DNA of 33,291 nt, from NCBI RefSeq assembly GCF_905480005.1, contig NZ_CAJQOO010000111.1, forward strand, positions 1-33,291, read 5' to 3'. The DNA comes from an uncultured Maricaulis sp. Lineage in GTDB: Bacteria > Pseudomonadota > Alphaproteobacteria > Caulobacterales > Maricaulaceae. The position numbers were made by a program, and so were the translations under genes. The notes beneath the pieces were generated by a model that was not told the origin of the DNA, ran no database searches, and saw only the letters and a program-made list of their open reading frames with translations. This document shows, one piece after another, positions 24,256 through 29,544 of the stretch. Each line of letters starts with the position of its first letter. The first letter of the stretch is position 1.

Positions 24256-24295
24256 AAAAAGGTTTTGCGATCACTGATCGTTTGCGACCTTTTTT
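24256..24295 (-). terminator. Terminator-like structure at the end of the PAS gene
   Basis: AAAAAGGT (24256-24263) is complementary to ACCTTTTTT (24287-24295), with an inner palindrome CGATCA-C-TGATCG that contains the PAS gene's stop codon. Flanking A and T runs would make it work on both strands. It separates the PAS gene from the PilZ gene. Confidence 0.5.
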
Positions 24296-24831
24296 ACACC
24301 TGAGCGATCATCCACGGCGAGGCCCGGGAAGATATGCCCCGGCATGGCCGGCGGGTGGATCTCCCGCAGTGATGTCCGCACGACGGGACGGCCCTTGAAG
24401 GCGTCCGTCGTATCGAGCGGCTGGAACAGGCCCAGCGTGCGGTCGATCGTGCAGGAGGGGCCGCGCAATGGCAGGAATGAAATCTCGACCGGCAATTGAT
24501 GCATGTCGAGCGAGTTGGCGCGGGCGATGACCGACGCCGGCGCGCAGCCGGTAATCGACGCTTCCAGCACGGCCTGGACATGGGTGCGGTCATGGCCGCG
24601 CCACAGGGACAGGAAGTTCTGTTCCCGGAATTCGCGCTGATAGAGATCGCACAAATGTGTGCCGGCGAGTCGGAAGATATGGTGTTGCGGATCGGCACGC
24701 CACAGGATGAAGACATAGCCGAGCAGGCCCGCAATATCCTGCGGTTCGATATCGGCACGATGCGGGGCTGCGCCGCCCTGGCGTCGGGTCTGCCAATAGG
24801 CATGCAGGGCCTTTGATTGCGCGTGGCGCAT
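24271..24831 (-). CDS. PAS_5-type PAS-domain protein
   Basis: A 186-residue single-domain protein of the PAS_5 type common in alphaproteobacteria. It starts with the HAYWQTRRQGGAAPHRADIEPQDIAGLL motif, followed by the FILWRADPQHHIFRLAGTHLCDLYQREF core and LSLWRGHDR. No output domain is fused. Start ATG 24831 is preferred: GGAG lies seven bases upstream and the PAS_5 motif then begins a dozen residues in. The frame is open to 24978 with other ATGs. Its ligand and partner are unknown. It is divergent from the secreted-protein gene at 25038, and the two 5' regions share about 200 bp. Confidence 0.85.
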   Translation of the reverse strand: MRHAQSKALHAYWQTRRQGGAAPHRADIEPQDIAGLLGYVFILWRADPQHHIFRLAGTHLCDLYQREFREQNFLSLWRGHDRTHVQAVLEASITGCAPASVIARANSLDMHQLPVEISFLPLRGPSCTIDRTLGLFQPLDTTDAFKGRPVVRTSLREIHPPAMPGHIFPGLAVDDRSGVKKVANDQ

Positions 24832-24990
24832 GAACGTCTCCACTCTTCTCATCGCTTCGCGGCGTGACACACCGGTCATCGCCAAGGCCTGTCCCGCTTC
24901 AAGAACGGGGCCATACGCCTGAGGCGGGAATGCGCGGATTGCGGCTTCTTCAGCGAGGCGAAACCGGCGTTCCGGCACGCGACGGGGAAT

Positions 24991-25006
24991 TGGCCCTGCC
25001 TTTGCA
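24991..25006 (+). promoter_or_regulatory. Sigma-54 (-24/-12) promoter for the secreted NVNV protein
   Basis: TGGCCCTGCCTTTGCA matches the consensus TGGCACG-N4-TTGCA at all but two positions and has the required GG-N10-GC spacing. Transcription would begin near 25017, placing the AAGGAG site (25025-25030) and ATG 25038 in a short leader of about 20 bases. Confidence 0.6.
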
Positions 25007-25037
25007 AGGACGGGGGCAATACGTAAGGAGCACGACC

Positions 25038-25934
25038 ATGCGCGTTTCAGCCCGGCACGCCTTTTTGATCCCAGCGAGCGCTGCGTTCGCCCTGTTTGCT
25101 GCCCCGGCTTCGGCCGGAGCTGTCGGTGGACCGGGTGATGGCTGCTGCACGCCGCCGCCTCCGCCGCCTTCCTGCTGTACGCATGGTGGCGGCCATACGG
25201 TCAATGTCCCGAACATCAATATCCATGGCGGCAACATCAATGTCGGCGTGAATGTCTCGACCCGGGTCAATGTGAACACCAATGTCAATGTCAACGCATC
25301 GGCCAATGCCAATGCGGGCGCCAACGCCCGTGCCGGCGCGGGTGCGGGGTCGGTCACCTATATCGGTGGAGGCTCCTACACGCCGATGACGACGGCTCCG
25401 GCCGCGACCGCGATCACCGGTCTCAATGTGGTCGGCGTCGAGGAAGAGTACGAGTACGAGTATTACGAGGAAGAGCGGACCCGTTGGGTCGAGGAATGGC
25501 GCGTCGTGCGCGCCGTTTGTGTTGATGACAATGGCACGCCGCACCCGGCTTCGCGTGTCGATGCCGAGGACCGGGTTGGCGCGGCCTATGATGGCGAGCT
25601 GTTCCGCTGTGTCGCCGGTACCGCCATGCAGACAACGATCGGCTGGGTCATTGACGGTGTCTATAACTGGGACGAGGCCCCGACCATCATGTGCCGCAAG
25701 GGCGAGGCCCTGCGTCATACCGCTGGCGGCAATCTGCGCTGCGAAACCCAGATCCCGCGCCGTAATTGCAATGAGCGCTCGCTCCTGCGTGTGCACGGCC
25801 CCGGCGTGAAGCTCGTCTTCATGCGACGCGAGGAGCGCTATACCGAGCGTGTCCGCCGCGAGGTCGAGCGCGAGAGCAGCCGCACGGTCTCCATGACCCT
25901 CATGCTGGATGGCGGCGTCGGCGGCTATCGCTGA
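25038..25934 (+). CDS. Secreted protein with Asn/Val-repeat tract and Cys-rich C-terminal domain (unrecognised)
   Basis: A 298-residue exported protein. The signal peptide ends near residue 27 (FAAPASAGA). Then come a CC-Pro6-CC segment (36-47), an alternating Asn/Val tract (about 54-100: NVPNINIHGGNINVG, VNVNTNVNVNASANAN) that could form stacked beta or amyloid-like structure, a Gly/Thr/Ala linker, a Tyr/Glu tract (EEEYEYEYYEEE, 135-146), and a compact domain with five Cys (161, 191, 219, 235, 244) plus a charged helix-strand end. AAGGAG lies seven bases before ATG 25038. No family recognised. It has its own sigma-54-like promoter and a strong terminator, so it is monocistronic. It lies about 1 kb beyond the hfaABD operon; a surface or holdfast role is inference. 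Confidence 0.85.
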   Translation: MRVSARHAFLIPASAAFALFAAPASAGAVGGPGDGCCTPPPPPPSCCTHGGGHTVNVPNINIHGGNINVGVNVSTRVNVNTNVNVNASANANAGANARAGAGAGSVTYIGGGSYTPMTTAPAATAITGLNVVGVEEEYEYEYYEEERTRWVEEWRVVRAVCVDDNGTPHPASRVDAEDRVGAAYDGELFRCVAGTAMQTTIGWVIDGVYNWDEAPTIMCRKGEALRHTAGGNLRCETQIPRRNCNERSLLRVHGPGVKLVFMRREERYTERVRREVERESSRTVSMTLMLDGGVGGYR

Positions 25935-25966
25935 TCCGCATTCGAAGACAACATCATCCACTGACT

Positions 25967-25999
25967 GCCCCGACCTGATCCAGGTCGGGGCATTTTTTT
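25967..25999 (+). terminator. Intrinsic terminator of the secreted-protein gene
   Basis: GCCCCGACCTG (25967-25977) and CAGGTCGGGGC (25981-25991) form a perfect 11-bp stem with a 3-base loop, followed by seven T (25993-25999). Confidence 0.95.
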
Positions 26000-26915: not shown

Positions 26916-28154
26916 TCAGTTGCCCGACTGCGGGTTCACTGTTTGATAGGTGGCGGAATTGCCGATCGCTGTGGCCGCGCCGGACAGGACGCCGCCCGTA
27001 TTCATGCGGCCGGTGACGATCGAGCTGACCGCGGCATTATTGGTCTGATTGGTGTTGCCCCACGCCGTGACCGGGCATTCGGAACAGACATAGGTGGTAG
27101 CGGCATTGCCAAAGGCGGTCGCCGAGACCAGGGCCGAGCCGCCGGCATCGCCGTCCAGATTGGAACGGGCGATCACAGCCGCATTATTGGTCTGGTCGAG
27201 GCCCATGAAGGCATCGGCGCCGATATTCGAAATGATGGCGGAATTGCCGACACCCTCGGCCGACACGCTCAGCACGTCGGCGTCGAAATTGCCGACCAGG
27301 ATTTCCGACTCGGCCGTGACGGCCCCGTCATTGTCCTGCTCGCCCTGGTTATGGGCATAGCCGTTCTCATTCTGCATCCAGACCGAATTGCCGTTTGCTG
27401 AGGAGACCACGGTTTGCGTGCGCGCTGTGCCGCCGGCATCGGTGCGAGCGCGTGCCGTGACGTCGCCGCGATTGTCCTGGTCGACATCAACGACCTGGGA
27501 CGGGCCATTGTAATAGCCCTCCAGCTGCGCCGAATTGCCATTGGCCGCACCGAGCACGGTCGCCGCATATCCCAGCCCGCCATCGGGGGCGAGGACATAT
27601 CCGTCCGCCGTGACATCGGCGCCCGAATCCTGACGCAAGGCCAGATTCGTGTCGCTGCCATAGGTGGTGCCCTGGAAGGCATTGGCCGAGGCCGTCGCCG
27701 AGGTCACCGAGGAGATCGCATAGCTGCCGACTTCCAGCTGCGCCGTCGCATTGACGGTCGAGCCGTCGAGCGCGGTCTGGCTGATCGCGGCATCCATGCC
27801 ATTATCATTGATCACGCTGGCCGAATTGCCCATCGCCGAAGCGGTGGTTACGGCAGTGCCGTCGACCATCATGGCACGCGTTTCCGCGCGGGCGTCAACC
27901 GAACCGGAGAAGGTCTGGTCGGACTGGATGTCATGGCGCTCCACAACGTCGACGGTCAGTGCATTCGCGGCACCGATGGCAGACTGGGACACGGCATCGG
28001 CCTGGTCCGTCTCACCGGTCGTCACGACCGTGATCGCGGCGTCCAGATTGACCTGGCCGTTGAGGATCTCAGTCGTATCGTCCGCGAAGATAGGTGCGCA
28101 CGTGATCGTCGCGGCGCTCATGCCCGCGATCAACATTGCTGCGCGCTTGGACAT
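26916..28154 (-). CDS. hfaD: Holdfast anchor protein HfaD
   Basis: A 412-residue secreted protein; the signal peptide ends near PIFA-DDTTE. The mature part is Asn-, Ala-, Thr- and Ser-rich and built from loosely repeated units: about seven A-x-G-N-S-A-like motifs (AMGNSASV, AANGNSAQL, SANGNSVWM, GVGNSAII, AFGNAATT, AIGNSATY) alternating with Q-x-N-x-x-x-V motifs (DQDNRGDVTARA, EQDNDGAVTAES, DQTNNAAVIARS, NQTNNAAVSSIV). This curlin-like pattern, and the order hfaA-hfaB-hfaD, identify HfaD, which with HfaA anchors the polysaccharide holdfast to the cell envelope in Caulobacter. Start ATG 28154 has GGAG seven bases upstream. Its first 86 bases overlap the end of hfaB in another frame. Confidence 0.88.
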   Translation of the reverse strand: MSKRAAMLIAGMSAATITCAPIFADDTTEILNGQVNLDAAITVVTTGETDQADAVSQSAIGAANALTVDVVERHDIQSDQTFSGSVDARAETRAMMVDGTAVTTASAMGNSASVINDNGMDAAISQTALDGSTVNATAQLEVGSYAISSVTSATASANAFQGTTYGSDTNLALRQDSGADVTADGYVLAPDGGLGYAATVLGAANGNSAQLEGYYNGPSQVVDVDQDNRGDVTARARTDAGGTARTQTVVSSANGNSVWMQNENGYAHNQGEQDNDGAVTAESEILVGNFDADVLSVSAEGVGNSAIISNIGADAFMGLDQTNNAAVIARSNLDGDAGGSALVSATAFGNAATTYVCSECPVTAWGNTNQTNNAAVSSIVTGRMNTGGVLSGAATAIGNSATYQTVNPQSGN

Positions 28155-29073
28155 TGGAGGTCTCCCGTTGACCGTAGGTGTGGGTGGCGCTGACGCCGCC
28201 AGTGATGTTGGAATGGCTGCCTGTCCTGCCGCCGATCGGATCGGAATAGGTGCAGGCTGCGGCCGGGTCGACGCCATACATTTGCGCCGAAATTTCAAGG
28301 ACGGCGCGCTCGATCACCGAACGCACGGCCAGCTGGACCGGCTCGAGCGAGCGGCCACCGCCGGAGATGTCGATCACCGCATCATCCCAGAAGGCAAAGA
28401 CCCCGGCCGAAATCTCGCGGCCGACGATCTGCTTCTGGTAGGAGATGACGTCGACCGTCTCCATCGTGCGCGTCTCGTTGAGGCGCAGATCGAGGCCGAT
28501 ATTCATCACCCACATGCGGCGGTTGAAGACGCCGGTCGGATCGCTGTCGATCCGGTCGCCACCCAGGACATCAATGCCCGAGGAGCGGATATTGTAGTTG
28601 AGCTCGGTAATGCCGCCGACCAGGTGATAGTCGGAGCCCGGCAGCGAGGCGGCATGGATCTGGCGCTGGGTGCCATTGTCGCCGATCAGCGAATTGTTGG
28701 CATAGCGCAATTCCAGTTCCGACACCGAGGTGTCGAAACGCTCGACCAGGCGGACACCGGCCTTGGCAAAGGCCGAGATCGCCATCAGCGAGGCGCCCTG
28801 GGTCACCGCGGCACCACCTTCGAGCGAGGCGCGGCCGGTATAGTCGGCGAGGCGCCCCACGGCGATGCGCGGCGATTGCAGATCATTCTGTCGGGCATAA
28901 TTGGCGAGGCAGACCAGCGCTTCCGAATAGGGGGTCGGATTGGCGGTCACCGGTGCGCCACCGATCGGGGTCGCATAGTTTCCGTCTGCACCCCCGGTGC
29001 GCGCCGTGGTCGCACACCCGGTCAGCGCCAGGGCGCTGGCGAGTGTCGCCATCAAAAGCTTAGTCTTGGTCAT
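28069..29073 (-). CDS. hfaB: Holdfast anchor secretion lipoprotein HfaB (CsgG family)
   Basis: A 334-residue outer-membrane lipoprotein. The lipobox LTGC puts the lipidated Cys at residue 20. The body matches CsgG/HfaB: LVCLANYARQNDLQSPRIAVGRLADYTG, DYHLVGGITELNYNIRSSG, and AVRSVIERAVLEISAQMYGVDP near the end. In Caulobacter HfaB is needed for secretion and stability of HfaA and HfaD and probably forms a CsgG-like pore. ATG 29073 overlaps the hfaA end by 14 bp. The C-terminal tail (about 40 residues, charged, VQARSNVDRGHERRDDHVRTYL) extends past the CsgG-like core and overlaps hfaD by 86 bp. Confidence 0.93.
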   Translation of the reverse strand: MTKTKLLMATLASALALTGCATTARTGGADGNYATPIGGAPVTANPTPYSEALVCLANYARQNDLQSPRIAVGRLADYTGRASLEGGAAVTQGASLMAISAFAKAGVRLVERFDTSVSELELRYANNSLIGDNGTQRQIHAASLPGSDYHLVGGITELNYNIRSSGIDVLGGDRIDSDPTGVFNRRMWVMNIGLDLRLNETRTMETVDVISYQKQIVGREISAGVFAFWDDAVIDISGGGRSLEPVQLAVRSVIERAVLEISAQMYGVDPAAACTYSDPIGGRTGSHSNITGGVSATHTYGQRETSNVQARSNVDRGHERRDDHVRTYLRGRYD

Positions 29074-29528: not shown

Positions 29529-29544
29529 TGCAACGCGCGTGCCA
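29529..29544 (-). promoter_or_regulatory. Sigma-54 (-24/-12) promoter for hfaABD
   Basis: Read on the minus strand, TGGCACGCGCGTTGCA fits the sigma-54 consensus TGGCACG-N4-TTGCA exactly, with GG-N10-GC spacing. Transcription would start near 29518, about 30 bases before the hfaA ATG at 29488. Activation by an enhancer-binding protein is implied. Confidence 0.75.

Follow-up and report, generated by a model that had tools for sequence, protein, structure and literature searches.

The probable hfaE gene and the hfaABD operon of an uncultured Maricaulis

The window, the whole 33,291-nucleotide stretch of DNA analysed here, is contig C111 of a 3.07-Mb, 94% complete genome of an uncultured Maricaulis sp. 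(G000). In it, a gene for a secreted, Cys- and Asn-rich protein (P0001) lies next to the holdfast operon hfaABD, and each of the two transcription units is preceded by a putative sigma-54 promoter (Table 1). The start of hfaD was picked by eye within a longer listed ORF (26916-28298).

Table 1 Features of the hfaE and hfaABD region of the window.
Feature	Position	Strand	Remarks
PAS_5 gene, distantly MopJ-like	24271..24831	-	divergent from hfaE
Degenerate -24/-12-like sequence before PAS gene	24898..24913	-	TGGCCCCGTTCTTGAA; 7.5 bits, last GC changed
Putative sigma-54 (-24/-12) promoter of hfaE	24991..25006	+	TGGCCCTGCCTTTGCA; kept in orthologues
Probable hfaE orthologue	25038..25934	+	ORF of 298 codons (protein P0001)
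Intrinsic terminator of hfaE	25966..25992	+	perfect 12-bp stem, then TTTTTTT
hfaD	26916..28154	-	NF037936, 139.6 bits (cut-off 100); convergent with hfaE
hfaB, CsgG-like	28069..29073	-	NF037935, 416.7 bits (cut-off 300)
hfaA	29060..29488	-	NF037934, 63.2 bits (cut-off 50); start chosen by eye
Putative sigma-54 promoter of hfa operon	29529..29544	-	TGGCACGCGCGTTGCA

An earlier reading of this stretch, made from the sequence alone, had assigned the P0001 gene a strong terminator, a signal peptide and a -24/-12 match at the right distance for transcription. All three hold on direct inspection: the 12-bp terminator stem is perfect and is followed by seven T, an A-x-A site is visible by eye at the N-terminus, and the 16-bp element TGGCCCTGCCTTTGCA has its GG and GC correctly spaced and lies 31 nt from the ATG at 25038, with AAGGAG in between. 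Transcription of hfaE would be expected to start near 25017. The distance of about 4.5 kb given in the same reading is right for the two promoters but not for the genes: hfaE converges on its neighbour hfaD, and about 1 kb separates the ends of the two.

A second HfaB/CsgG-like gene lies elsewhere in the genome (G000:C130:11069-11833, minus strand; 282.4 bits, below the HfaB cut-off), and extra copies recur in relatives.

Sequence and predicted structure of P0001

P0001 consists of an apparent N-terminal signal peptide, a Cys/Pro/His-rich linker, NVNV repeats and a β-rich C-terminal domain (residues ~136-283) with conserved or invariant cysteines and a GGVG tail. This Cys-containing domain is the best conserved part of the family; the repeats are reduced in some relatives. 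Close relatives are encoded at 11 named loci, all of them from Maricaulis. At E up to 1, the sole Pfam match was to DUF5406 and fell below the cut-off (15.7 bits, cut-off 25), NCBIfam gave no match, and a P0001 profile found no sequence in the PDB.

AlphaFold modelling of the full-length protein (mean pLDDT 58.0) predicts residues 1-135 to be disordered, with pLDDT below 50, and places the β-rich domain in the remainder, with block means mostly of 75-93 over residues 141-270. The domain modelled alone has a mean of 74.9. Foldseek searches of the PDB with both the full-length and the domain models returned nothing at E up to 0.001. Because of this lack of a significant fold match, the C-terminal domain may represent a new fold, as modelled from a shallow alignment of 12 sequences from one genus.

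P0001 resembles HfaA and HfaD in being secreted and Asn-rich, in having the promoter class of the hfaA operon and in occurring in the same genomes. It differs from them in matching neither the HfaA (NF037934) nor the HfaD (NF037936) profile, in having its own transcription unit and in its conserved cysteines.

We considered whether P0001 is a curlin-like amyloid subunit that is secreted via HfaB as curlin (CsgA) is via CsgG, and so a second HfaA, a possibility compatible with its being HfaE. The Asn-rich NVNV repeats, the CsgG-like pore encoded nearby by hfaB and the description of HfaA, in the relevant passages of one paper, as curlin-like and HfaB-dependent (PMC6707917) all point in this direction. 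The composition of P0001 had likewise been called curlin-like from the sequence alone, but Pfam lends this no support: no curlin profile matched at E up to 1, in contrast to what is expected of CsgA, and curlin family membership was rejected. Moreover, conservation is strongest in the Cys-containing domain rather than in the repeats, and the N-terminal 135 residues are predicted to be disordered, so that an amyloid role strikes us as doubtful.

P0001 as the probable Maricaulis counterpart of HfaE

The known gene hfaE very probably has its Maricaulis counterpart in the window gene. We infer identity with CCNA_02722 of Caulobacter crescentus from gene position, by counting genes in G178 (locus L052; family f3, 4.14 Mb), a genome that looks Caulobacter-like in size and gene order. 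There hfaA, hfaB and hfaD are followed by genes for an ABC-F protein and a histidine kinase, three ABC-transporter genes, a small gene, a DUF2336-like gene, a gene for an M16-like peptidase and then the P0001 homologue; the names of the intervening genes were read from translations, not from family searches. The homologue is identical to P0001 in 106 of 269 aligned columns (39%, E 9e-42 in a single comparison). It is the 10th gene after hfaB, and since hfaB is CCNA_02712 according to the pertinent passage of PMC12340889, it should correspond to CCNA_02722. It is also the 11th after hfaA, which is CC2628, and should therefore be CC2639. A 2007 list of proteins common to C. crescentus, O. alexandrii and M. 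maris contains both CC2628 and CC2639 (PMC2241609).

Hershey et al. (2019) named CCNA_02722 hfaE and, in the passages of their paper that deal with it, report that its deletion in C. crescentus causes shedding of the holdfast, an anchoring defect, and describe the product as a hypothetical protein with a signal peptide and no known family (PMC6372794). P0001 and C. crescentus HfaE (CCNA_02722/CC2639) thus share their position relative to hfaABD, their secretion, the lack of a known family and the company of holdfast genes. The arrangement is tighter than in L052, where ~12 kb and eight genes separate the hfaE homologue from hfaD, unlike the neighbouring pair of the window. In the literature passages that we draw on, the hfaE phenotype is known only in C. 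crescentus. What the sequence-only reading took for an unrecognised protein and a new holdfast or surface component accordingly occupies the position of a gene published in 2019 as holdfast-anchoring.

P0001 could instead be some other conserved secreted surface protein of holdfast bacteria, co-regulated with hfaABD and belonging, for instance, to the stalk or envelope, given that orthology to CCNA_02722 rests on gene counting in G178; this is very improbable, as the CCNA and CC numberings both land on the same gene and P0001 fits the published description of hfaE. HfaE may need HfaB for its export, and the protein was reportedly also the subject of a 2022 paper in the Journal of Bacteriology.

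Co-occurrence and synteny of hfaE with hfaB

In the order, relatives found with the P0001 profile were present in 209 of 398 genomes and HfaB above its cut-off in 199, with 196 genomes having both, 13 hfaE only, 3 strong HfaB only and 186 neither. Strong HfaB thus accompanies hfaE in 196 of 209 genomes and is found in 3 of the 189 others (Fisher p ~1e-92, uncorrected for kinship). The split into strong and weak HfaB was made from E-values and gave 199 strong matches, the same as a separate tally. Among the 13 genomes with hfaE only, 6 have a sub-cut-off HfaB-like match; of the remaining 7, 4 are less than 90% complete, and one, G013, has its hfaE close to the end of a contig. The class set (385 genomes) gave 17 with both, none with hfaE only, 3 with strong HfaB only and 365 with neither, so strong HfaB occurs in 17/17 hfaE genomes versus 3/368 others. 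Sub-cut-off HfaB-like matches without hfaE were seen in 8 genomes of the order and 11 of the class.

Coordinates of both genes were available for 127 of the 196 genomes, with the two on the same contig in 105. They are convergent within 20 kb in 91 of these 105 (84 of the 91 within 8 kb; median 4.5 kb), and 14 depart from the convergent neighbourhood. For G058, the HfaB copy near hfaE was used over a better-scoring distant one. Fourteen hfaE genomes belong to other orders, and in all nine of them that have both genes on one contig these are convergent within 5 kb.

Taking HfaB to stand for hfaABD, homologues of P0001 are therefore neither equally common in genomes without the operon nor usually remote from it. 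The link to the holdfast operon drawn by the sequence-only reading is borne out by near-perfect co-occurrence and convergent synteny, and these, together with the conservation of sigma-54-type promoters before hfaE and hfaA described below, give good support to its proposal of a shared surface-attachment regulon. The near-perfect co-occurrence across orders also suggests that HfaE is part of the core anchor rather than an accessory.

Strong HfaB without an hfaE match was noted in G046, G170 and G230 of the order and in G479 and G593 of the class. Such genomes may contain a diverged hfaE, may have assembly gaps, or may have anchors that do without hfaE.

Conservation of the putative sigma-54 promoters

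A loose pattern fitted to TGGCCCTGCCTTTGCA and allowed up to two mismatches matches the window 49 times versus 45.75 expected, so a bare loose match says little; the hfaE site is the only mismatch-free one. The strict pattern TGGCMCN5TTGCW finds exactly the hfaE and hfaA sites in the window, in agreement with the single other sigma-54 match noticed there originally. Across the 3.07-Mb genome it has 5 matches (3 for a reversed control): before hfaE, hfaA, a flagellin-like gene and a 74-aa ORF, and one apparently inside a long coding frame, the gene kinds being read from translations. The match before the 74-aa ORF (L125; G000:C164:10116-10131, minus strand) lies 39 nt upstream of it, and the ORF is possibly a further sigma-54 gene.

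Orthologous upstream regions were scored with a -24/-12 weight matrix written from the consensus, on which the site scores rest. In 335 bp upstream of hfaE, 49 of 60 orthologues contain a site at or above 9.5 bits, compared with 175 of 2400 dinucleotide shuffles (7.3%); at 11.0 bits the counts are 35/60 and 62/2400. (L061 of G210, where the position of hfaE was guessed, was excluded from the 60; the start in L052 was set by hand.) Sites at 9.5 bits were found in 21 of 25 genera and are missing from 4, and some of those counted stand at an unusual distance (L057 and L062, for example). Of 61 rows, 39 have their best site 46-48 bp ahead of the matched start. CGG often takes the place of TGG in the hfaE site. 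In the 18 rows from the Maricaulis genus the distance from the best site to the start is invariably 46 or 47 bp, and the GG and GC are kept while the flanks diverge; the exception in score is G010, whose site is weak (6.9 bits). Three of the six f3g21 genomes have no site before hfaE and one has a weak one. This conservation across orthologues indicates that the hfaE promoter is more than a chance match.

The signal upstream of hfaA is stronger: 28 of 35 regions (15 of 21 genera) reach at least 14 bits, against 6 of 1400 shuffles (0.4%), and no opposite strand (0/35) reaches 11.0 bits. Four of the 21 genera have no site at 9.5 bits. Four of 39 hfaA regions had been left out, L091 and L108 for want of an hfaA motif and L111 and L112 for runs of N; the misses in L057, L092 and L097 possibly reflect a misplaced search interval. 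In nine genomes from other alphaproteobacterial orders, compared by raw score, the best hfaA-region site has 17 to 19 bits in 7 and less than 7 in 2, and the best hfaE-region site reaches at least 10 bits in every genome and stands 54 to 134 nt ahead of the first start codon.

The possibility that the -24/-12 sequence has no promoter function, with hfaE read from elsewhere and the match due to chance or serving another protein, draws on the chance frequency of loose matches, the genera without a site and the absence of an activator site among the inverted repeats examined (see below), but sits so poorly with the fixed position and retained GG and GC in Maricaulis and with the excess of hfaA sites over shuffles that we give it little credence. 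The preservation of one sigma-54 promoter type on both hfaE and hfaABD in many related bacteria is possibly a new observation. For C. crescentus, the passages covered by a literature search contained no statement of a sigma-54 promoter of hfaA.

The divergent PAS gene

The neighbour divergent from hfaE encodes a PAS_5 protein, and its start was set at the ATG at 24831, chosen because it is common to relatives. A PAS_5 gene is likewise divergent from hfaE in all three relatives checked (L052, L056, L058). The protein is like MopJ in having a PAS_5 domain, although its weak MopJ score of 42.3 bits is far under the 200-bit cut-off. Scoring of the opposite strand of the hfaE upstream regions, which faces the PAS gene, was meant as a control and came out above background (24/60 at 9.5 bits or more, 18/60 at 11.0 or more). 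This result drew attention to the sites that precede the PAS gene, which come close to the consensus in several genera and are degenerate in Maricaulis. As a good -24/-12 match faces the PAS gene in many genera, this gene may belong to the same regulon.

Candidate activators

The Maricaulis genome has one sigma-54 match. Two of its four best activator loci (L127-L130) show the GAFTGA motif, which in C. crescentus occurs only in FlbD and TacA, according to the passage concerned in PMC10274813. One of the two proteins has a REC-AAA-HTH architecture, reaches 355.6 bits where the FlbD cut-off is 750 and ends in Ala-Gly, as TacA does in the text seen of PMC7010744; it was taken as TacA, and the other, by reading of its sequence, as FlbD. 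Inverted repeats upstream of 32 hfaE and 22 hfaA promoters showed no clear common pattern, and only 3 of 5 Maricaulis sequences retain a TTCCCC-N5-GGGGAA repeat that lies 40 bp before the hfaA site. A 2021 study has PleD acting on holdfast production through the TacA programme; its text, when searched, yielded no mention of "hfa" (PMC7885107).

Co-occurrence with TacA was uninformative as a test of the activator: a TacA-like protein is present in 50 of 51 hfaE genomes (not in G099, and as a fragment only in G034) and in 30 of 30 hfa-less Caulobacterales genomes searched.

A model for coordinated holdfast anchoring

The best explanation of the sequence, co-occurrence, synteny and promoter conservation, to which as a whole we assign a probability of roughly 0.87, is that P0001 is an HfaE orthologue that anchors the holdfast, and that hfaE and hfaABD are both transcribed with sigma-54 and an activator. 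HfaE would anchor holdfast polysaccharide to the cell envelope. Sigma-54 RNA polymerase and an enhancer-binding protein, TacA or FlbD, would transcribe hfaE by itself, and the convergent hfaABD operon would be read from the same promoter class, so that synthesis of all anchor parts coincides at a set stage of the cell cycle. With its signal peptide for export, HfaE would probably be located at the outer surface at the holdfast pole, perhaps reaching it through HfaB, and its disordered Asn-rich N-terminal part and Cys-containing β-domain may tie the holdfast to the HfaABD complex. As the same promoter type is kept on hfaE and hfaABD, anchoring may come on as a single unit during development.

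Considering the span from Maricaulis to Caulobacter-like genomes and other orders, we lean slightly towards a broader view in which holdfast anchoring is an ancestral sigma-54 regulon of Alphaproteobacteria: hfaABD, hfaE and often the PAS gene would each have their own -24/-12 promoter, and a developmental activator would set the timing. If so, the moment of anchor synthesis would be determined by TacA, whose timing depends on c-di-GMP, or by FlbD, whose timing depends on flagellar assembly, apart from the control of polysaccharide synthesis. HfaE is a little-studied part of the anchor that fixes the polysaccharide glue to the envelope, and the conserved promoters offer a testable link from the TacA and FlbD programmes to attachment.

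A separate, minor observation concerns several f3 genomes (L052, L053, L054, L055, L082), in which a conserved CCGCACGGGGCTTGC-like block lies ~60-80 bp before the hfaE promoter site.
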